From a virus: a stretch of DNA of 46,037 nucleotides. How positions within the stretch are numbered: position 1 is the stretch's first letter; each line of letters starts with the position of its first letter. The notes under the pieces were generated by a model. That model ran no database searches and had not been told where the DNA came from. It was given only the letters and a program-made list of their open reading frames with translations. A program made the position numbers and the translations under genes. The DNA lies in IMG/VR virus record IMGVR_UViG_3300046096_000407, positions 1 through 46,037 of that record. One strand, given 5' to 3'. This document shows, piece after piece, positions 17,294 through 46,037 of this stretch.

Positions 17294-17322
17294 ATTATAC
17301 TGCCATTTTTTGGCGGTGTCTA
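17294..17322 (-). promoter_or_regulatory. Sigma70-type promoter, leftward
   Basis: On the minus strand TAGACA (17322-17317) and TATAAT (17299-17294) are separated by exactly 17 bases: five of six and six of six matches to consensus. Expected start near 17287, giving a leader of about 65 bases before the ATG at 17220. The -35 box overlaps the last codon and stop of the homing endonuclease gene. Clearest promoter in the window. Confidence 0.85.
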
Positions 17323-17988
17323 TAGTGGTTCGGAAAAATTTTCACTTTCTAGGGCTTGTGGGATTGACCAGCCGCGTCGGAGCCGCTTGTGGACCGGGTG
17401 GTACGGTAGACCAGCAATCTCACAAGCCTCGGCCAAGCTGATTAGCTTGCCGAGGTAGCTGACAAGTCGGTTGTTTCGCTTGTTACGTTGCTGCTGTACG
17501 GCTGTCGCCCACACGCAGTTCTCAGGCGAGTAGCCTAAGTCGTTGTCTACCCTCTCTAGGCTGAGTCCGGGCCGGTGACTAGGGCTCAGGTCCGAAATAA
17601 AATTCTCGACTGAATGCCATCGCTCGCAGACCGTGATGCCGCGCGCGCCGTAGGCTGCAAACTTCGGGCTCTTTTGGCTGTAGCACCGCCTCATCATCCC
17701 GCTGTGCGTGTCATACAAATGGTGCTTTTCCAGCCCGTGAGTAGTGTTTGCCCGCCCGGTTGCGGCCATAACCCCCCTCTGGCCACATCCACAACTCGTG
17801 GTGTGGCCGTTGCGCAGGTTGCTCATCTGGACCTGCCGCGCCTCGCCGCAGTCACAGCGGACTACCCACCTAGAACGCCCCTGCCCCTCTACCTTACTCA
17901 CGAGTGTAAGCCGCCCGTACCTGTCACCGGCTAAGTTAGGCTCTCTACCTGTGGGAGGCTCTCTACCTATAATTTTATTATTAAACAT
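17320..17988 (-). CDS. Free-standing homing endonuclease, zinc-binding N-terminus, EDxHD/HNH-like core
   Basis: 222 residues from the ATG at 17988, chosen because GTAAGGGTAAAT is directly upstream and it clears the primase stop at 17997; a start 33 bases earlier would overlap primase. Residues about 18-70 are a zinc module (GDRYGRLTLV, CDCG at Cys45/Cys47, SCGCG at Cys66/Cys68). The core has YGARGITVCERW (113-124) and LERVDNDLGYSPENCVWAT (144-162), the pattern of phage endonucleases related to the Vsr-like EDxHD family. The C-terminus (LISLAEACEIAGLPY) looks like a NUMOD-type DNA-binding helix. It sits between primase-helicase and the possible SSB gene as a selfish insertion. Confidence 0.75.
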   Translation of the reverse strand: MFNNKIIGREPPTGREPNLAGDRYGRLTLVSKVEGQGRSRWVVRCDCGEARQVQMSNLRNGHTTSCGCGQRGVMAATGRANTTHGLEKHHLYDTHSGMMRRCYSQKSPKFAAYGARGITVCERWHSVENFISDLSPSHRPGLSLERVDNDLGYSPENCVWATAVQQQRNKRNNRLVSYLGKLISLAEACEIAGLPYHPVHKRLRRGWSIPQALESENFSEPL

Positions 17989-17996
17989 ATTTACCC

Positions 17997-20846
17997 TTAC
18001 TTTTCGGAAAATACTGTGCATCCACTGTCAAGCAGCGATTCATAGTCCAACCTAGTAGTCGCTGCTGGTAGGTGCTTAGTGCCAGCAGAGATATCCATGA
18101 ACTGACCACAATCCTTCAGTGCCAAGGCTAAAGAGTCCTCACCGTTGAACAGTGGCTTCATACCCAAGTTCTTGCAGTATATGCGGTACTTGTTGTACGC
18201 TGGCCTCACCGCTAACTCTAAAACTCTACGCCCACCCATGTCCTTCAGTTGGAACTCATAACCGTAATTCAGCTTAGCTTGGGAGTCCGGCTGCAAGTGG
18301 CTCATGTCACCGAGATGCTGCAGCACCCTTACGTACTCTGGGACGGTGTTGGATACCAAGTCTGACATACGGCTATAGCATGCGTTTCTCAACTCAGCCA
18401 TTTCCTTGTCAAACATATCACCGAACTGTGTCTTCAGCACCCAGCCGAATACGCCAAGCCCGAATTCAGCGACTGCGTAGTTGTAGACAATACGCTCCCT
18501 GCCGTGCCCCTTACGCTTGATTTCCTCGGCGCTCAGGGTGTCCAAGTCGCCAGGTTGCAAGCAGTGCTTGGCCCGGGCCGCTGCGTAGAGTGCGTCGAAC
18601 TTCGAGGAGAAGCTCTCCCTGTCCAGTCGCGCCAGCATGTTCTGCAGTATGAACGCCCCGATATGGGACAGGACAACTTGTCCCTGCTGGAACCGCTGGA
18701 AGTGTGCGAACTGCTGAGCCCCTTTAATCCCCGGCAGCCGGCGGAATGTGGCCAAGACCACCCGCTCCAAGAGCGCAGTCTCAGCTTCAATTGCTTCGGC
18801 TACGAACATTGTGGGGGCTGTCAAGGTCTGCTCTGACACACTGGCAAAGCCGTCAGCCCCGCGCTTGCCTCCGCCGCGCATCACAGGCCGGCAGTTGTAG
18901 GCATCCCGCAGCATCAGCTTCAGGGCATGGTGCTTCTCAAACGGCATGTCATTGGGCTTGTACTCGTCCACAAACAGCGGGATGCTGGCCGAAGACATCA
19001 TAAAGCTCTGAATGGCAAACACCGTGGACGTGGGGCTAATCTGCACCGGGTCAGCATGATGGTAGTGCAAGCGCAGCAGGGCAAGGTTCATCTCCGACTT
19101 GCCTGCGCCGGCCTGTCCTACAACGTGCAGCAACGGAAACTTGCCGTAGCACACATGGAAGACGCTACGGTAGAAGCATGCCACTTGCCAGCCCAAGAGC
19201 TTGCCCAGCACCTCAGCAGGTTGTGCCCTAAACAGGTTCCACAGGGCGTCTTGGGCTTTCTCCCTATTCCCTTCCACAGCCAAGTAATCCTCAAAAGAAG
19301 GGCACCGGCTGAGGTCCGAGTGGAACTTGCCTGTCGGGTCTGGGTACCCGTTGAACTTCAGCGGGTAGTCGCCCTGCACATGAACGCTTGGCCTCACGCC
19401 CCTCTCGTCAGCGTAAATCAGGAACCCCTTGCGAAGCTCCTCCTCGTCTGAGCGAGCAGACTTGAACCAACTGAGGCCTTCCTTTTCTACCAGCAGGGTG
19501 TTGGCCCCTGCCCGTTTTGACTCGTCGATTAGCATTTCATACAACTTTCTAGCCACAATGTCGCTGGCCGTAAATGAGATTCCAGTACGCGATACCGCCC
19601 TCTGCATGGCAGAAGAACTTTGGAAGTCTTCTGGGGAGAAGGTCAAGTCCTGTCCTGCCATCTTGCCGGTGAGCGCCATGATGGCACCTGTGTTCGGGTC
19701 TACCAAGGTTGTGACTTCCTTGACTATTCCGCGCATGAAATAGTTCTCAATCCCCTCATCGTTTCTGGTGTAGTACCCGTCTGGTCCCCGGTAAATGCCA
19801 CAGTCGTAACCAGCATGCTCCCCGTCCTCAAGTGGCCCGTCGCCGGCCCCTGCCGTGGGGCCCTCTGGCGCTGCTACAGGGGTCAGCAACTTGGCGAAGG
19901 CTCCGCTGTTGTACTCGTAGGCAAAGTTGTCCTCGACGTACATCAGCATGTTGCAGAGTTCACGCTCCCGCGCCTTGGCAGTGCCGTAGCGAGAGCCGCC
20001 CTTGTGGTTGGCAATCAGGCCTTGGGCCCGGTTGATGAACTGCTCTTCGTTCCAGCCGGATTCACGGGCATACAAGGCCAACTGCATTGCAATCAGGTTG
20101 AAGCCCGCTTCCGACTCACCGTTGAGCAGCTTGACCACCACAGGCAGGTCTTGCTGAATCTGTCCGGGGGTCACCACCTTGGGCTTGCGCCGTTTCTTGG
20201 TGACACCGGCCTTCTGTACTGCCTCGTCGAACAGCAACCCGAACTGGAACCGGAACTCGGGCCGCGCCGGTGGCATGTGCCGGGGCGCTGCACACAAGGA
20301 CTTGTAGGTCTCTGGGGTCAGTGACTCAAGCTCCTGCAGAGAGATCTGCACCTTGTAGTTGCCGTTCTCCCGGACGTTGTAACAAGTCCGCAGCATGCGC
20401 CCCTTGCGCCCAGTGTAGACCCGCAGGTCGGTACTGGGTGTGGAGAGCTTGAATGCGATTTCCTTGTAAACGTCAAACAGCCGGTACATGGGCACCGGCT
20501 TTTGGTTGAACGCTACTTCCGGGATGATGATGTGCAGCCCCTTCTTGCCGCTCAAGTACACCTCAAAGTCGTAGGCCTGAAGCCCATAACTCTGCAGGCG
20601 CTGCACTGTCACCTTGGCGTCAGCAATGGCGTCTTGGATGTCCTCTGCGTCCAAGTCGAAGTACAGTGGGCCGCTGTACTTGGCCGCGTCCAAGTCTTCC
20701 CTTGTTGGCTTTTCTGCCAGTAACGTGTCCACCGCCAAGATGGTCACGAACGTGGGACGCACACCCTCCAAGGTCTGCTCTGCTTGGATAGGCTGCCACG
20801 CTTCCTTGCCACCAATGAGTTGGTAGTATTTGTAGAGCTTGGCCAT
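17997..20846 (-). CDS. Primase-polymerase (AEP) fused to SF3-like helicase
   Basis: 949 residues. N-terminal archaeo-eukaryotic primase: YFDLDAED with Asp64 and Asp66, SGKKGLHIIIP with Ser99 and His105, and the third acidic region STDLRVYTGRKGRMLRT (Asp140). Middle part helical (residues about 230-330). C-terminal ATPase: Walker A GQAGAGKS (577-584, Lys583) and Walker B LFVDEYKP (Asp627-Glu628), as in SF3/D5-type replicative helicases. This fusion would both prime and unwind at the phage fork and replace host DnaG/DnaB. Starts 3 bases after the upstream gene's stop. Confidence 0.88.
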   Translation of the reverse strand: MAKLYKYYQLIGGKEAWQPIQAEQTLEGVRPTFVTILAVDTLLAEKPTREDLDAAKYSGPLYFDLDAEDIQDAIADAKVTVQRLQSYGLQAYDFEVYLSGKKGLHIIIPEVAFNQKPVPMYRLFDVYKEIAFKLSTPSTDLRVYTGRKGRMLRTCYNVRENGNYKVQISLQELESLTPETYKSLCAAPRHMPPARPEFRFQFGLLFDEAVQKAGVTKKRRKPKVVTPGQIQQDLPVVVKLLNGESEAGFNLIAMQLALYARESGWNEEQFINRAQGLIANHKGGSRYGTAKARERELCNMLMYVEDNFAYEYNSGAFAKLLTPVAAPEGPTAGAGDGPLEDGEHAGYDCGIYRGPDGYYTRNDEGIENYFMRGIVKEVTTLVDPNTGAIMALTGKMAGQDLTFSPEDFQSSSAMQRAVSRTGISFTASDIVARKLYEMLIDESKRAGANTLLVEKEGLSWFKSARSDEEELRKGFLIYADERGVRPSVHVQGDYPLKFNGYPDPTGKFHSDLSRCPSFEDYLAVEGNREKAQDALWNLFRAQPAEVLGKLLGWQVACFYRSVFHVCYGKFPLLHVVGQAGAGKSEMNLALLRLHYHHADPVQISPTSTVFAIQSFMMSSASIPLFVDEYKPNDMPFEKHHALKLMLRDAYNCRPVMRGGGKRGADGFASVSEQTLTAPTMFVAEAIEAETALLERVVLATFRRLPGIKGAQQFAHFQRFQQGQVVLSHIGAFILQNMLARLDRESFSSKFDALYAAARAKHCLQPGDLDTLSAEEIKRKGHGRERIVYNYAVAEFGLGVFGWVLKTQFGDMFDKEMAELRNACYSRMSDLVSNTVPEYVRVLQHLGDMSHLQPDSQAKLNYGYEFQLKDMGGRRVLELAVRPAYNKYRIYCKNLGMKPLFNGEDSLALALKDCGQFMDISAGTKHLPAATTRLDYESLLDSGCTVFSEK

Positions 20847-33207: not shown

Positions 33208-33335
33208 TTCTTTACTCCATAAAATTTCAATAGGATTGCCGAAGCGTCGCTTCGTGGGTACTGGTCCAACAAGTCAGCCGCATCTCGAACAAGGGCTTTC
33301 ACAAGGTTGTCCAAGTAGCGGTTGGGTATGTACAT
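33204..33335 (-). CDS. 43-residue miniprotein
   Basis: ATG at 33335; stop overlaps the next ATG (ATGA). Helical: YLDNLVKALVRDAADLLDQY, then ASAILLKFYGVKK. Supported by the coupling to the Nmad5-like gene; no homology seen. Confidence 0.55.
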   Translation of the reverse strand: MYIPNRYLDNLVKALVRDAADLLDQYPRSDASAILLKFYGVKK

Positions 33336-33418
33336 GTCGTCATATCTTTATCTGGGTCTGGCCCGTTTAGGGTTTGGCTTAGGACTTTTAGGTGCAGGTT
33401 GATAATGTGCTTGTTCAT
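33299..33418 (-). CDS. 39-residue miniprotein
   Basis: ATG at 33418 overlapping the upstream stop; the end overlaps the next gene by 37 bases in another frame. Begins MNKHIINLHLKVLSQTLNGP. The overlap and short length make it uncertain. Confidence 0.4.
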   Translation of the reverse strand: MNKHIINLHLKVLSQTLNGPDPDKDMTTCTYPTATWTTL

Positions 33419-33561
33419 AACTTCCCCACAGGTTTAGCCAGCAACCACTTGTCACCAAGCATCCTGACAGACTTAGCCCAAGCCCTCCGGTTGTGGCGGT
33501 CTGTTGACCGAATTCCCGAGCTAAATAACCGCTTAGTCAGCCGCAGATAGTAAGTTTGCAT
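33415..33561 (-). CDS. 48-residue basic miniprotein
   Basis: ATG at 33561, stop in ATGA with the next gene. Arg/Lys-rich (YYLRLTKRLFSSGIRSTDRH, RRAWAKSVRMLGDKWLLAKP), so probably binds nucleic acid. No family recognised. Confidence 0.55.
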   Translation of the reverse strand: MQTYYLRLTKRLFSSGIRSTDRHNRRAWAKSVRMLGDKWLLAKPVGKL

Positions 33562-33706
33562 AGTATTCCTCGTATTTAAGATTTACATAGAGCCAGTAAT
33601 AATAACCCATAGATTCTGGCAGGTACTTTTGGTGAGCATGAAATTCTTCAACAGTATATTTAGGGTGACCGTTAGGCCATCTCACCTGAAGCTCGTCAGT
33701 GGTCAT
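33533..33706 (-). CDS. 57-residue Tyr-rich miniprotein
   Basis: ATG at 33706 (ATGA overlap upstream). Composition like a real protein: DELQVRWPNGHPKYTVEEF, then GYYYWLYVNLKYEEYYANLL. Similar Tyr-rich small proteins occur in other phages; function unknown. Overlaps the next gene by 29 bases. Confidence 0.6.
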   Translation of the reverse strand: MTTDELQVRWPNGHPKYTVEEFHAHQKYLPESMGYYYWLYVNLKYEEYYANLLSAAD

Positions 33707-33804
33707 ACAAGAACCTCAAATCCCCATTCACCAAGCACAATCTTAGGTCGAAACCCGCGCTCTCGTAAAGAGCCAGCCAAGATTGAAGCATCAATTTCAG
33801 ACAT
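33703..33804 (-). CDS. 33-residue miniprotein
   Basis: ATG at 33804, 8-base overlap with the peptidase end and ATGA overlap with the next gene. Encodes SEIDASILAGSLRERGFRP, then KIVLGEWGFEVLV. Short but exactly spaced between two coupled genes. Confidence 0.5.
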   Translation of the reverse strand: MSEIDASILAGSLRERGFRPKIVLGEWGFEVLV

Positions 33805-36900: not shown

Positions 36901-37287
36901 TCACAGGTCCCGATGCACAAGCTTCCCACCACCGCCATAAAGCGCAAAACTTAAACAATCAACCAAGTGGTAAGTCATCGACATCCCCGCGCCCTGCACA
37001 CAAATCGCATCCCGAATCCGCCAGTCAAGCGCTTGGCTGACCATCCAGTCAAGGTTCTTGATCTCTTTGCCCTCGATACAAAACACGCTAATCTGACGGC
37101 TCAGACCGGACTTGGAGACTGAGCGCACAAGGGTGAATACAGTCGAACCCTCCGGCAGCCATTCACGCAGGTACTTCTTCGCCTGCTCACAATACTTGCG
37201 CTTGCCCTCCGCCTTGGAGAGCTTCACAGCCCCGTTCAGCGGGCCGCTGAGTTGGTAAATAGTACCGTCTAATTCGTAGTAGTGCAT
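36901..37287 (-). CDS. Conserved phage protein
   Basis: 128 residues from the ATG at 37287, with GGAG 6 bases upstream; an ATG 12 bases earlier is part of that ribosome site. LREWLPEGSTVFTLVRSVSK, SGLSRQISVFCIEGKEI and QGAGMSMTYHLVDCLSFALY with a C-terminal HRDL follow a family common in phage accessory regions. Mixed alpha-beta; function unknown. Overlaps the next gene by 19 bases. Confidence 0.75.
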   Translation of the reverse strand: MHYYELDGTIYQLSGPLNGAVKLSKAEGKRKYCEQAKKYLREWLPEGSTVFTLVRSVSKSGLSRQISVFCIEGKEIKNLDWMVSQALDWRIRDAICVQGAGMSMTYHLVDCLSFALYGGGGKLVHRDL

Positions 37288-40255: not shown

Positions 40256-40747
40256 TTAGAGTCTCGCAAATTTGCCATGGTATTTTTGGGCAGCTTCTCG
40301 GTAGGCTTTTGCTGCTTCTTCTATGTCTGTGAACAGGCCTAGCCTTATGAACTTGCCTTCGTGGGTGATTGAGGCTTGCCACTTTTGGTCTCGCTTATAC
40401 CAAGAGACCCCCTTGTGGCCTGATGTGTTATTCGAGTTGGCACCTCGGTTATAGCCGTTCTCTGAATACGTCGCCAGCCGCAGAAGTTCTTTTCGGTTGT
40501 CAAGTTTATTGCCTTCTCGGTGGTCCACTAACTTCCCCTCTGGGTCCCCCATAACAAACCTATGCAGGCTGAGTTGCCTGTGTTTACCTTTACCAGTCAA
40601 TAGGGACGTAACGGCATAGCCCTTGGCAAGTTGCCAATTATGTTTTCCTACTAACTTCGCATCTTCTGAGTCGATAATCGCTTCCGCCCCACAAGCTAAG
40701 GTCACATAAGCCGCGTCACCTTCAATCCGAATCGGTCTCTTCTTCAT
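40256..40747 (-). CDS. AP2-HNH homing endonuclease, copy 2
   Basis: 163 residues from the ATG at 40747 (GGAGCCTAAAA upstream). Same order as copy 1: PIRIEGDAAYVTLACGAEAI, then HNH (LSLHRFVMG, KLVDHREGNKLDNRKELLRL, ENGYNRGAN), then AP2 (SGHKGVSWYKRDQKWQASIT, HEGKFIRLGLF, EEAAKAYREAAQKYH). Close to copy 1 at both protein and DNA level, so a duplication or separate arrivals of one family. Confidence 0.9.
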   Translation of the reverse strand: MKKRPIRIEGDAAYVTLACGAEAIIDSEDAKLVGKHNWQLAKGYAVTSLLTGKGKHRQLSLHRFVMGDPEGKLVDHREGNKLDNRKELLRLATYSENGYNRGANSNNTSGHKGVSWYKRDQKWQASITHEGKFIRLGLFTDIEEAAKAYREAAQKYHGKFARL

Positions 40748-40756
40748 TTTTAGGCT

Positions 40757-40815
40757 CCAAAAATAAAAGCCCGCTGGGTCGGCCTGTAGTCGCAATACAG
40801 GCTCTCCCAGCGGGC
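40757..40815 (-). terminator. Nested hairpin / leftward terminator before AP2-HNH copy 2
   Basis: Outer stem GCCCGCTGGG (40769-40778) / CCCAGCGGGC (40806-40815). After symmetrical three-base internal loops comes an inner stem GCCTGTA (40782-40788) / TACAGGC (40796-40802). Reading leftward it is followed by TTTTATTTTT. Same placement as the hairpin before copy 1. Confidence 0.88.
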
Positions 40816-40937
40816 AGTTAAAGCTTTGAGATGTGTCCGTTGCGACCGGAAATTTCAAAGCCAGCCGCAAGTGTAGCACCTGTTCCCGTTGGCGTTGAAA
40901 TAGGAGCCGATTTCAAGTGCGGCGAAGGTTGTGCGCT

Positions 40938-41492
40938 TCATAAGTATGCTTTGAGGGTTTCTATTTGTTTTTGTTGCATAGCCGCAGCATCCCGAGCCGC
41001 AGCATCCCGAGCAGCATCAGCAGCAGCATCAGCAGCCCAAGCAGCAGCACGAGCAGCAGCACGAGCAGCAGCATCAGCAGCAGCATCAGCAGCAGCACGA
41101 GCAGTAGCATCAGCAGTAGCATCAGCATCAGCATCAGCAGCCCAAGCAGCATCAGCAGTAGCAGCAGCAGCACGAGCAAGCTCCAACTCCTCTTTTGTGG
41201 CGGCGTCGTTAGCGAACTTCTCAGCCACGTCAAGTGCCGCAAGGCTTCTGGGGTCGGTCATCAGGTGTTGCACTTCTCTAGCGAAAGCAACAGCTAACAA
41301 GCGCTTTTCCTTGTCAAAACCTTCGACCGCTCGCAAGCACCAGAGGGCATCATCGAATCCGTTGGACTCCAAGACTGTGAGCAGTGGTAGGGGTTCGTCG
41401 TCTGCGGTTGTCTTGTTGAGGTGCTTCAGGAGTTGGGCCCAGCCTTCTTTACAGGGTGCGTGCTGGCGGATTTTGGTTAATGTGGTTTTCAT
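40938..41492 (-). CDS. Phage protein with conserved N-terminus and Ala-rich repeat tail
   Basis: 184 residues. The N-terminal ~105 residues (KTTLTKIRQHAPCKEGWAQL, FDDALWCLRAVEG, RSLAALDVAEKFAND) are a widespread phage domain. The next ~70 residues are almost only Ala with Asp/Arg at regular intervals (TADATARAAADAAADAAARA), encoded by a GCA/GCT/GCC-rich simple repeat at about 40985-41180. A long helix is predicted. No Shine-Dalgarno is visible before the ATG at 41492. Function unknown. Confidence 0.8.
   Translation of the reverse strand: MKTTLTKIRQHAPCKEGWAQLLKHLNKTTADDEPLPLLTVLESNGFDDALWCLRAVEGFDKEKRLLAVAFAREVQHLMTDPRSLAALDVAEKFANDAATKEELELARAAAATADAAWAADADADATADATARAAADAAADAAARAAARAAAWAADAAADAARDAAARDAAAMQQKQIETLKAYL
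40985..41180 (-). repeat. Ala-codon (GCN) low-complexity repeat
   Basis: Trinucleotide-periodic GCA/GCT/GCC tract within the preceding gene. The opposite strand reads as an Ala/Ser-rich open frame, which is a by-product of the repeat. Confidence 0.85.
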
Positions 41493-42079: not shown

Positions 42080-42925
42080 CTACATGAAGTCGTCAAAGCT
42101 TACGGTCGGAGGCGCGGCCTTGGAATCTGCTGCTGTCCCGTAAGCGGGCGGCGTGAACCAAGCGCGGGGCTCCCCTGCGGGGCCTTGCCATATCTCGGAG
42201 GCAATCTCCCACTCGTAGGGTGGGTCCCCTGCGTCGAACTCCCAAGCGTTGTCGGGGCGGTCGGGTCTGGGGGTTGGGTCTGGCAGGTAGATTTCTTTCC
42301 CTGCCTTTGGGACGTGTGCAGAGGTCACCCAAGCGTAGCCAAGGGTTGTGGCTAGGGCTTGGGCTTGGGTTAGGTCTTTGGCCCGCAAAACGTGTATTTT
42401 TCTTTGTAGGGGGAACGAACCGGCGAAGAATTTTTGATACCCACGCTCGTCAGCTATCACCCCGTTAATTTGGCTGCAATGCAGGCATGAGCCTCCTTGT
42501 AGGAAGTAGGTGGAAATGCCCAGGGTGAACTTGTTGCAGGCGGTGCATTGCCCAATCCAGACGCGGGCACCTCCAAGGCTTACCTTGGTGAGGCGGGTTT
42601 TGTCACTACTTAGGATTGGTGCCAGGTTTTTGGTTGGCAGAAAGGTCGGGGGCATGGGTTGGACATGGCTCGGCTCCACCAAGAACCAGCCACCCTCCCA
42701 CCGGATGCGTTGGCGGTAGTGCTTTACCACTACGTCAGGCTTCACACCTTCCCAGTTGGAGGGGATTAGTTTGTCGGGTTTGTCTGGTGCAGGCACCAGT
42801 TCGGTAAGGGTTCGGCTCTTTACCCAGCCGGAGAGCTGTTCCAAGGCCTCCAAGGTGGAGCGTTTGGGGCTTCGCAGGCCTCCGGGCAGGGGAGGGAGGA
42901 CTCTTTGTCGGGTGATTGTGGTCAT
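42080..42925 (-). CDS. Hypothetical protein with CxxC pair
   Basis: 281 residues. Residues about 125-150 hold CTACNKFTLGISTYFLQGG and CLHC, a likely zinc site. The middle has KIHVLRAKDLTQAQALATTL; the C-terminus is Pro/Trp-rich and acidic (PDRPDNAWEFDAGDPPYEW), ending SFDDFM, a short acidic tip that could bind a partner as in SSB tails. The ribosome site before the ATG at 42925 is weak. No family recognised. Confidence 0.65.
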   Translation of the reverse strand: MTTITRQRVLPPLPGGLRSPKRSTLEALEQLSGWVKSRTLTELVPAPDKPDKLIPSNWEGVKPDVVVKHYRQRIRWEGGWFLVEPSHVQPMPPTFLPTKNLAPILSSDKTRLTKVSLGGARVWIGQCTACNKFTLGISTYFLQGGSCLHCSQINGVIADERGYQKFFAGSFPLQRKIHVLRAKDLTQAQALATTLGYAWVTSAHVPKAGKEIYLPDPTPRPDRPDNAWEFDAGDPPYEWEIASEIWQGPAGEPRAWFTPPAYGTAADSKAAPPTVSFDDFM

Positions 42926-43354
42926 ACTATTCTATTTCGATATGTTTAGAGGATACGGAGGGGTAAAAACCAAAACCCAAGCGTCTTTGCTTTTTAAGGC
43001 TTAAAAACTTTTAGGCTTATAAATGGCCTGTAATGTATTCTTGAAAAGTATGGAATAGGTTTTATAGAATAGTTAAACCCTTATAAAACAACAACTTACT
43101 TATCAAAACCTTGTCGATTCTATCCTAGGAAAATCCTTGTAATAGGTAATAACAATAATTTTTGACCACAAACTTGTAGGGGGCTTTGCCTAATAACCCT
43201 AAAAACGCGTAAAAATTTTATTTAGTCTCTAGAACGGGGCTATTCTTCGAGTTTTCTAGGAGGGAATAGCCGTAGAAGCAGATAATGTTTGACAAACTAG
43301 CAATTTAGTTCTAGGCCCAAGATAAAACCCTTGTGAACGCCTGATCCTTTGTTA
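42926..43354 (-). other. AT-rich non-coding gap with palindromes
   Basis: About 430 bases with no convincing gene on either strand. Contains TTTTTAAG-G-CTTAAAAA (42991-43007), a second AGGCTTA at 43013, and a GGCTATTC / GAATAGCC stem (43238-43245, 43264-43271). Possible operators, promoter or attenuator for the genes to its left. TATAAG-like -10 boxes occur, but none has a good -35. Confidence 0.5.
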
Positions 43355-43459
43355 TCAAACCCACAAAATCACAATCACACCGACTATGCCAACGATCACG
43401 ATAATCAAATCCGATACCCGAAAAGGGTCTGATTCAAGGGGCTCAAAGGGTTTTTTCAT
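43355..43459 (-). CDS. 34-residue single-TM miniprotein
   Basis: ATG at 43459 with GAAAGG upstream. Charged start (KKPFEPLESDPFRVSD), then one hydrophobic helix (LIIVIVGIVGVIVILWV) to the end. Likely inserts in the inner membrane; function unknown. Confidence 0.65.
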   Translation of the reverse strand: MKKPFEPLESDPFRVSDLIIVIVGIVGVIVILWV

Positions 43460-43522
43460 AAATACCTTTCATAAATTTCGGTTAATCCGTACTCGGAAGC
43501 TGCCTCGTAAGGCAGCAACCGG

Positions 43523-43702
43523 CTACGCCCTCCGCAAGGAAGGCACCTCGCCCCGCAAGAGGGCCGCAACATCAATCAAAATTTCGGAAACTGGCATATT
43601 CAGAACGCAAGCCAGCCCCGAAAAGTCACGAGACACCGCAAAATTGACAGCATCTGCGTAAAGCTCTTGTGGTAGGAGTGCGAGTAGGGTGGTGGGGTTC
43701 AT
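43523..43702 (-). CDS. 59-residue helical miniprotein
   Basis: ATG at 43702 overlapping the upstream stop (TGA at 43699-43701). MNPTTLLALLPQELYADAVN, then FAVSRDFSGLACVLNMPVSE and ILIDVAALLRGEVPSLRRA. All-helical, with a possible HTH-like turn. The DVAALLR segment recurs at the end of the 43935-44333 gene. Confidence 0.6.
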   Translation of the reverse strand: MNPTTLLALLPQELYADAVNFAVSRDFSGLACVLNMPVSEILIDVAALLRGEVPSLRRA

Positions 43703-43938
43703 CGAACCAGCCCCATAGCTTCATTGCGCTGCTGTACAGCCCACCGACACCGCTCACGCCCCGTAAGGGTGCAGCGGTCGTAGAAATGAATGTAGCCTTG
43801 CTCTTTTATGCCCATGGCCTCCCAAGCACTTGGCTCCATGTCAGCAGGGCGCTCAAATATAGGTACTGGCCTTGGCCGTGGTAGGGCCGAAAGTTTTTCG
43901 GTAAGAATAGCCTCAGGGCTTAATCCGTAAGTGTTCAT
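43699..43938 (-). CDS. Hypothetical protein
   Basis: 79 residues from the ATG at 43938 (ATGA with the upstream gene). Pro/Arg-rich (LPRPRPVPIFERPADMEP), then WEAMGIKEQGYIHFYDRCTL and RERCRWAVQQRN. No family recognised. Confidence 0.6.
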   Translation of the reverse strand: MNTYGLSPEAILTEKLSALPRPRPVPIFERPADMEPSAWEAMGIKEQGYIHFYDRCTLTGRERCRWAVQQRNEAMGLVR

Positions 43939-44333
43939 AGTACCCACTGGCTATCACGGCGCAACAAGGCCGCAACGTCCGACACCAGCCCCAGCAAGCG
44001 GGCCTTGGTTTCGCCTTCATGGGCGTTCATGATGAACACCAAGGCCCCGAAGTCGTACTTGCGAGCCGCTGCGATGGCGTCACCGCAATAAGGGGAGTTT
44101 AGGAGGGATGCCGCAAGAGTCTGAGCCTCCCCTTCACCCTCAACATGACCCACCATGACCCAGTTCGACTTGCCCCATGACCTCCCAGCCCCCTGCTGGA
44201 CGGCAACGCGGTCACCCTCCAGTACGCTTGTAAACAGGTTGGTCGCTGAGACTAACCCGAGGCTTGTGTTGGCCCCGATGCGGTCGCCTTGGTCATCCGT
44301 GGCCCAGCCCCGAAACGTAGTAACTTTGAACAT
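43935..44333 (-). CDS. Hypothetical protein, first of the leftward accessory block
   Basis: 132 residues; GAAAGGTAAACC before the ATG at 44333 is a strong ribosome site. Beta-rich front (FKVTTFRGWATDDQGDRIGA, SVLEGDRVAVQQGAG), then a helix-rich end (LLGLVSDVAALLRRDSQWVL). The DNA just upstream is packed with hairpins. Function unknown. Confidence 0.65.
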   Translation of the reverse strand: MFKVTTFRGWATDDQGDRIGANTSLGLVSATNLFTSVLEGDRVAVQQGAGRSWGKSNWVMVGHVEGEGEAQTLAASLLNSPYCGDAIAAARKYDFGALVFIMNAHEGETKARLLGLVSDVAALLRRDSQWVL

Positions 44334-45016
44334 GGTTTACCTTTCATAAGTGTGCGAAATTGCACTTGAAAGGGCACATATATGCCCGATCAGCTGGAAT
44401 TTCAGCCAGCCCCGCAAGGGGCCGTTCAGGGCGTTTTTCAGCCCTTGAGCTGGGTAGACATCACCCAGTTAGATGGAGGCCGCTGCGAGGCTTCCCATAC
44501 GTTAATACTGGCATGGGAGACAGGCAGGGCGTTCGGTTAAAGGTTAAGGCTTTGTCGCTGCGCCTGGTTACAGCTCACACAATTCTGCCGGTGTGATCGA
44601 CTCTTGCTATGTTCCGCAAGACGGACCTATTTTGTTTGATTGACGGCGCGTATTCCGGCTGACATTGCCGAAGTCTTGAACGTGTTGTCAGGGAGAGCAG
44701 GGACGGCATAACCCATTGGAACTATAAAGGGACCCGCAAGTGAGCATGGTTTTTAGAATAGTCCCGCAAGGTGTCGGCGTAAGTCAATACACTAGGCCGT
44801 GTGTCTGTGTTGTTCAATATATCGGATTCTCAGGGGGTGGAATCGTTACCATAAAGCTCCATCGCGTTAGCTGGGAGCTTTGTCCCGCTTAGGTAGGCGG
44901 GTCCGTAACTGGTGGACAGCGGGGGAACGTACCATGCTCGTGCATACGTTTGCTAGTCGCCTAGGTTACGGGGTTTTGTTGCCGGTTACTATCACGGGTC
45001 CGGGGTAAGAGTAGCG

Positions 45017-45089
45017 GGGGCCGGGGCTCTGATGTAACCGATACGGGGCCGTTATCGGGCCGCATAAGGGAAACGAAAAGAACCGGGGC
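45017..45089. repeat. 73-bp direct repeat, copy 1
   Basis: Matches 45141-45213 at a 124-base offset. Starts GGGGCCGGGGCTCTGATG and ends AAAAGAACCGGGGC, with no differences seen. Confidence 0.95.
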
Positions 45090-45113
45090 CGGGGCCGCTA
45101 TCGGGGGCCGGGG
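45085..45113 (+). other. G-quadruplex motif
   Basis: Four runs of 4-5 G (45085-45088, 45091-45094, 45103-45107, 45110-45113) with loops of 2, 8 and 2 bases on the plus strand. It sits between the two 73-bp repeats. Confidence 0.6.
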
Positions 45114-45140
45114 CTGTAATGGCTTGAATTGTTAATGACC

Positions 45141-45213
45141 GGGGCCGGGGCTCTGATGTAACCGATACGGGGCCGTTATCGGGCCGCATAAGGGAAACGA
45201 AAAGAACCGGGGC
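45141..45213. repeat. 73-bp direct repeat, copy 2
   Basis: Second copy of the 45017-45089 repeat. A shorter, diverged inverted relative (GGCCCCGATAACGG ... GATTACATCAGGG) lies at about 45283-45330. Confidence 0.95.
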
Positions 45214-45245
45214 AACGCTACGGGGTAGCGGGGCGCGTAAGATTA

Positions 45246-45283
45246 CGCTATAAAATTAATAGCACGCTATCAATTTTATAGCG
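45246..45283. repeat. AT-rich inverted repeat
   Basis: Perfect 12-base arms CGCTATAAAATT (45246-45257) and AATTTTATAGCG (45272-45283) with a 14-base spacer. A related hairpin GCTATCAA/TTGATAGC is found near 45573-45590 inside the next gene. Confidence 0.9.
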
Positions 45284-45307
45284 GCCCCGATAACGGGGCC
45301 GGGTCGA

Positions 45308-45814
45308 TTACATCAGGGCCGGGGCCGGGGCTTTGATTGTGGGGGCCGTTTGCAAGGCCTCAGTAATGGCCGCAATATCTTCGGGGCTGTATAACCCCGC
45401 GCTAAGGGCTGTTAGGATGTCATTCAAGGCCGGGGCCTTGATTGTGGGGGCCTTAGGGACCGGGGCCGCCTTTGGTGCGGGAGTTAAGGCCGCGCAAATT
45501 TGCGCATAAATCGCATACCCGTAATTGTTGAAGTCTTCCAAGCTGGCCCCGGCCATGTGCCGGGGCTTTCCTGCTATCAATTTGATAGCGGCCCGACAGC
45601 GGGCCGCGTTTGCCCCTTTTGTTGTCAGGGTTTTTTCAAATTGAATGTGTGCATCGTTGCCGCTATGGGCCCATTGCAAGGCACACCCTGCGAGCGTGTT
45701 GGCTAAATTTTCCCGGGCCGCGTTCTTGTCGCTCAGGCTGTCGTAATCCGTTTGTAAATCGCGGGAAAAGAATGGGCGAAATTCGCCTTTGAGTGTGTTC
45801 ATAGAAATCGACAT
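45308..45814 (-). CDS. Hypothetical protein with repeated APTIKAPA tail motif
   Basis: 168 residues; AAGG 7 bases before the ATG at 45814. Helical N-terminal 110 residues (SLSDKNAARENLANTLAGCA, AARCRAAIKLIAGKPRHMAG). Then a Pro/Ala/Lys linker with two APTIKAPA motifs flanking a short helix (LNDILTALSAGLYSPEDIAA). First gene of the leftward direction next to the right-edge repeats, so an early or regulatory role is possible; no family recognised. The GGGGCC-rich composition of the flanking repeat continues into its 3' end. Confidence 0.65.
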   Translation of the reverse strand: MSISMNTLKGEFRPFFSRDLQTDYDSLSDKNAARENLANTLAGCALQWAHSGNDAHIQFEKTLTTKGANAARCRAAIKLIAGKPRHMAGASLEDFNNYGYAIYAQICAALTPAPKAAPVPKAPTIKAPALNDILTALSAGLYSPEDIAAITEALQTAPTIKAPAPALM

Positions 45815-45873
45815 TTTGAAACCTTTTCTTAATTAGCCGTATTAGATAGATTCTAATTTATCGGCATAGGTTT

Positions 45874-45902
45874 ATTATACATAGAATTTTAGGTTTTAGG
45901 GA
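45874..45902 (-). promoter_or_regulatory. Possible leftward early promoter
   Basis: Perfect TATAAT on the minus strand (45879-45874) in an AT-rich stretch, 60 bases before the ATG at 45814. The -35 position is a poor match, so it may need an activator or an UP-like AT tract (45885-45928). Confidence 0.45.
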
Positions 45903-45928
45903 TAAATTTAATTTTATTTTTTAATTTA

Positions 45929-45979
45929 GGCTTGCCAGGTAACGGGGCTTGCCAGGTAACGGGGCTTGCCAGGTAACGT
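45929..45979. repeat. 17-bp tandem repeat, 3 copies
   Basis: GGCTTGCCAGGTAACGG at 45929, 45946 and 45963 (last base of copy 3 is T). Iteron- or operator-like, immediately upstream of the AT-rich promoter-like stretch. Confidence 0.95.
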
Positions 45980-45980
45980 T

Positions 45981-46001
45981 GTGGTACTTGACGTGTACCA
46001 C
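45981..46001. promoter_or_regulatory. Palindromic site GTGGTAC-N7-GTACCAC
   Basis: Perfect seven-base arms (45981-45987, 45995-46001) with a TTGACGT spacer, one base after the 17-bp repeats. Size and symmetry suit a dimeric regulator binding site. A TTGAC inside the spacer could be a -35 box for rightward transcription out of the window. Confidence 0.5.
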
Positions 46002-46037
46002 CTACGACAGCGACCAGGCGCCAGCCCAGTCCAGGCC

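Follow-up and report, generated by a model that had tools for sequence, protein, structure and literature searches.

Compact phage genomes seldom contain long noncoding elements that are conserved; those that have been studied turned out to be large RNA assemblies. The closest described systems, GOLLD and ROOL, comprise RNAs of phages and prophages whose function is unknown and which often, but not obligatorily, lie near tRNA genes (PMC12286853). Here we describe a noncoding block in a siphophage-like virus known from a 46-kb fragment, an IMG/VR virus record of 46,037 nucleotides that we call the window. Like GOLLD and ROOL, this block is long (about 600 nt), noncoding, phage-borne, conserved and rich in hairpins. 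Unlike them, it has only two known members, one in the window and one in a 75-kb relative whose polymerase is 97% identical (G003, IMGVR_UViG_3300043391_000446), and any extensive covarying structure in it is conjectural. No match to the GOLLD and ROOL covariance models reached the gathering score in the window, and even with E values of up to 5 allowed, neither 44200-45400 nor the G003 copy gave one; ARAGORN found no tRNA genes in the window. Since there is neither a tRNA gene within 46 kb nor a model match, the block is not filed under GOLLD or ROOL, though it may work like one of them.

The comparison with other described families gave a similar picture. Rfam families did not fit at gathering or at permissive thresholds, all matches being at chance level. 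Three candidates were considered and rejected: the nrdJ RNA (20.4 bits for a gathering cut-off of 40.3, E 0.48, no match in G003); a self-splicing intron or HEARO element (Rfam intron and HEARO models without match in 44200-45400, the window or the G003 copy); and an HNH-associated RNA (an HNH gene lies beside the block in G003 only, and the HNH-free site of the window is about 830 bp from the block). Phage early operons can also carry structured leader or antitermination RNAs, e.g., HK022 put. The block resembles these in having hairpins in what would be the early part of the early transcript, but it greatly exceeds them in length, its place is behind the first gene, and a sequence link was not found. 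Iteron-type replication origins of phages and plasmids bring together direct repeats, AT-rich palindromes and G+C-rich repeats. All three occur here in one gene-free stretch, but the repeats are one local duplication, are unconserved in relatives and are separate from the conserved block.

The left side of the window carries rightward tail genes (tape measure, tail, fibre or spike), followed by the leftward genes among which the locus lies:

From 7.8 kb on, leftward: early and replication genes (SbcC-like nuclease subunit, DNA polymerase, primase, helicase, ligase, thymidylate synthase, HNH genes).
43935-44333, minus strand: 132-aa gene after the block; directly follows the leader in L005, absent in G003.
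45308-45814, minus strand: first early ORF, 168 aa; distant or unrelated ORFs instead in G003 and G007, absent in L005.
45810-45939, minus strand: AT-rich conserved leader with a TATAAT-like box, the putative early promoter.

The two minus-strand ORFs are separated, as originally predicted, by a gene-free gap of nearly 1 kb (44334-45307, 974 nt), in which the sole ORF is a plus-strand one of 78 aa with a TTG start. No other minus-strand gap within the early region is as long, yet contrary to what had been proposed the genome has further gaps: the same rule gives gaps of 773 nt (42926-43698) and 589 nt (33208-33796). The former, another long stretch without a minus-strand ORF of at least 60 aa, is 95% identical in G003 up to 43352. 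Beyond the right edge of the leader, G003 runs on into a rightward block with the terminase large subunit and portal genes, which places the gap, by its sequence context, near the start of the leftward early block and beside the divergent junction with the late genes.

Three relatives cover the locus: G003, G007 and L005 (IMGVR_UViG_3300022744_000090). The other genomes found by their polymerase (G001, G002, G004-G006, G008, G009) have no match to the leader or to gene 42080-42925 and probably do not cover the region, so that absence of the block from them is uninformative. In L005, the leader (window 45825-45933) is directly followed by a homolog of gene 43935-44333 (74% identity), and the 168-aa ORF and the entire gap, about 1.47 kb, are missing. 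Because L005 lacks both the first gene and the block, this module looks dispensable. Gene starts in the region have the ribosome-site sequence TTATGAAAGG in common, and a simple reading is that L005 would have lost the module by recombination between TTATGAAAGG-type repeats. G007 has the leader, then a different first gene of 231 aa, long inverted repeats and a (GTGGCTCTGCCC)n array at which the contig stops, and it is uninformative on the presence of the block. Related contigs tend to end at repeats of the kind seen in an Ala-codon repeat ORF of the window (AGCAGCAGC units, 40980-41178) and in the tape measure gene at its left end (66-bp tandem repeat, 1-267).

G003 keeps the block (44401-44982, 90% identity) between two different flanks. 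On the left, gene 43935-44333 is absent and the block has an HNH gene beside it. A deletion at a shared GCCCCGCAA seems to have created this left edge, and the block may therefore naturally begin anywhere in 44340-44408. On the right, GGCGGC-rich sequence and a 154-aa ORF (29% identity) replace the repeats and the first ORF. The gap as read from these alignments is composite: a conserved noncoding block of ~580 bases adjoins a fast-changing repeat tract that is foreign to G003.

The HNH genes themselves show signs of movement. The one in G003 (plus strand, phrog_99, L017:944-1500) is inserted between flanks that meet without it at 43460-43580 of the window, a with/without pair for a mobile HNH gene. 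Another (phrog_374, 17320-18021) adjoins the primase gene in the window, whereas its relative in G003 is found far from there, within the late genes (40466-41091), which suggests that it is mobile too.

The block and its hairpins comprise the following features:

44408-44981, unstranded (minus slightly favoured as the strand of action): noncoding block shared with G003 (L017:1501-2103), 90% identity.
44340-44485, unstranded: array of short perfect hairpins (z -3.4 on the plus strand, -4.3 on the minus strand).
44897-44917, unstranded: terminal hairpin, invariant left arm.
44921-44950, unstranded: terminal hairpin, hypervariable apical loop; insertions of 5 and 13 nt (18 nt) in G003 and most positions substituted.
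44955-44978, unstranded: terminal hairpin, invariant right arm, ending in GGGGTTTTG.

Over 44408-44920, i.e., without the hypervariable loop, 29 of 513 positions differ from G003 (5.7%), compared with 22 of 147 four-fold sites (15%; Fisher P=0.0006) in gene 42080-42925, the nearest shared syntenic gene in genomes that are mosaic and lack alignable neutral sequence right beside the block. Genome-wide, the differences at four-fold sites amount to 30% (874/2951). The block contains eleven invariant runs of 21-60 nt each. A hidden gene is ruled out by stops in every frame, the lack of codon periodicity (substitutions 5/8/5) and frame-shifting indels, and the window block and the G003 copy share no reading frame. 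The pattern of substitutions indicates purifying selection on the left two thirds of the gap (about 44340-44986), which form a separate noncoding element. Beyond G003, we found no homologs in 398 genomes of one phylum, with exact DNA probes in IMG/VR and GTDB species genomes or with blastn in phages and plasmids, methods that distant homologs could escape; the other matches were of 16-41 nt, at chance level.

Many hairpins had been predicted in the gap, and part of it bears this out: the excess of local structure is real in two stretches, 44320-44519 with z from -3.4 to -4.1 and 45200-45359 with z from -3.7 to -5.0. In the middle of the block (44480-44800), structure does not go beyond chance on either strand. 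The portion of the hairpin array to the left of 44401 is missing from G003, at the presumed deletion junction. At the other end, the triplet pairing near the terminal loop changes from AGC/GCU to UGC/GCA between the two phages, and invariant complementary arms around a scrambled loop are what would be expected of a hairpin kept for its stem. The two-sequence consensus fold of the minus strand has a z of -3.7 (0/100 shuffled alignments), with -4.7 at the left end and -2.7 at the right end. Among 18 coding control segments folded on the same strand (mean z -1.3, sd 1.5), two fall below the value of the block, so that the fold alone is no proof of an RNA. With two sequences only, there are few consistent changes on either strand, and the placement of substitutions in the block shows no clear strand preference.

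Our tentative reading, and the most likely one, is that the leftward early transcript includes the block as a structured noncoding segment. The conserved leader with its TATAAT-like box would drive the minus strand, and a transcript starting near 45.88 kb would place the RNA segment between the first early gene and gene 43935-44333, with the long, variable-tipped hairpin first and the hairpin array last. The segment could act as a long structured leader controlling the downstream genes or as a stable RNA cut from the early transcript. We infer transcription, RNA-level function, strand and mode of action from the sequence, and several observations speak against them: the fold is not exceptional relative to coding controls, the middle of the block lacks an excess of structure, the two members provide no deep covariation, there are hints of a plus-strand product, and L005 does without the module.

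The right third of the gap has a different character, and its features are the following:

45017-45240, unstranded: 124-bp tandem duplication (1.8 copies, TRF) holding both 73-bp repeats; not conserved.
45085-45113, plus strand: four-run G motif, G-quadruplex-capable by pattern.
45247-45263 and 45266-45282, unstranded: tandem 17-nt palindromes GCTATNAANTTNATAGC; counterpart at 37175-37191 in G003 with 2 mismatches.
45286-45326, minus strand: inverted repeat copy, extending into the 3' end of ORF 45308-45814.
45573-45589, unstranded: third, perfect copy of the GCTATNAANTTNATAGC palindrome, within the first early ORF.

The repeats described in the original prediction are present. The 73-bp direct repeats (45017-45089 and 45141-45213) are 100% identical at a spacing of 124 bases, the diverged inverted copy near 45.30 kb is 41 nt long (80% identity), and the G motif between the copies, GGGGCCGGGGCCGCTATCGGGGGCCGGGG, is the sole plus-strand match in the region. 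The predicted AT-rich palindrome of 12 bases exists as well but is larger than described, being part of the two tandem 17-nt palindromes at 45247 and 45266; apart from the listed copies, none occurs in the window at up to 2 mismatches. Of the features of the tract, this palindromic site alone has a counterpart at a similar position in G003. The 73-bp repeats, the G motif and the GGGGCC words of 44987-45307 are not conserved in relatives. GGGGCC words are 23-fold enriched in the tract and the adjacent first gene (15 copies in 828 bp), and the short words of these two stretches are phage-specific: GGGGCC in the window, GGCGGC in G003 and other repeats in G007. By this comparison, the repeats are a local 124-bp tandem duplication inside a hypervariable, phage-specific tract, and the right third as a whole (44987-45307) would be part of the turnover of the first early gene.

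The first early gene (45308-45814; L023:6186-6650; L024:7509-8204) is itself hypervariable, with an abundance of low-complexity words that are specific to each phage (GGCCCC, GCCGCC, TTTEA codons). All that its three proteins have in common is a C-terminal motif like I(I/L)xAIxAGLYxxxxIxAI, and they belong to no known family; the family search with the 168-aa ORF gave none either, and its AF2 model (pLDDT 44) was left unused. Three tandem 17-bp GGCTTGCCAGGTAACGG units (45929-45978) lie upstream of the leader, on the stretch that separates the putative early promoter from the late (terminase) side. They are a candidate operator or packaging-related repeat, of which G003 retains only a GCTTGCCAGG piece.

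Another possibility, which we consider rather improbable, is that the locus works as a DNA-level cis element, i.e., that the hairpins of the block and the neighbouring palindromes and repeats form a replication origin or lie next to a packaging site, with proteins binding the DNA or extruded hairpins. The hairpins are strand-symmetric, the palindrome cluster has its counterpart in G003, and the early/late junction is near: in G003, some 1.7 kb separate the block from the start of the terminase large subunit and portal genes on its right, and a regulatory or packaging role nearby is conceivable. Yet the repeats are conserved neither in sequence nor in spacing, unlike iterons, which would be kept in close relatives (in G003, GGCGGC words replace the GGGGCC type), and the cumulative GC skew of G003 has no minimum near the locus. 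That the repeats are unconserved and that L005 lacks the whole module both argue against their being the basis of an essential origin or packaging site. The original interpretation (a replication origin, packaging or recombination site, or an abundant structured RNA) holds in part: G003 conserves a constrained, noncoding and partly hairpin-forming block (44408-44981) that fits a structured RNA or another cis element, but not the 73-bp repeat, the G motif and the inverted copy on which most stress had been laid.

The block is unlikely to be a functionless relic, a leftover spacer or dead module shared by recent common descent or exchange. The mosaicism of the genomes (four-fold divergence of 0.13 to 0.7 between genes) and the presence of the block in two members, with L005 devoid of it, are compatible with such a history, but the block has diverged less than half as much as the four-fold sites of the least diverged gene, and invariant arms flanking a scrambled loop within one tract would be unexpected in a uniformly recent, unconstrained sequence. 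It is very improbable that the block gives rise to a noncoding RNA of its own that is read rightward, in opposition to the early genes, and ends about 44986. In favour of such an RNA, conservation with G003 stops right after GGGGTTTTG, the C(GCAA)G loops stay GNRA through one change to GTAA, and helix 44728-44734/44748-44754, where one pair changes from A-U to G-C and another from G-U to A-U, depends on plus-strand G-U pairing to form in both phages. Against it, the plus-strand consensus fold has a z of only -1.3, no plus-strand promoter-like site occurs in 44000-46037 and the end was not called a terminator.

The comparison of these genomes shows that the conserved noncoding element at the locus is real, and that the repeats beside it are not conserved. 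If it were only a hypervariable early spacer, it would still illustrate that eye-catching repeats and G motifs can be the least conserved part of a gap. An early transcript segment of the kind we favour might even, though we consider this doubtful, belong to a class of large structured phage RNAs (about 600 nt) that is new: it would have no relation to GOLLD, ROOL or other Rfam families, and the early module that encodes it in uncultivated siphophages would be dispensable. As a further candidate, unrelated to GOLLD and ROOL, the block has its conserved core mapped, and L005, which lacks the module, provides a clean plus/minus comparison.
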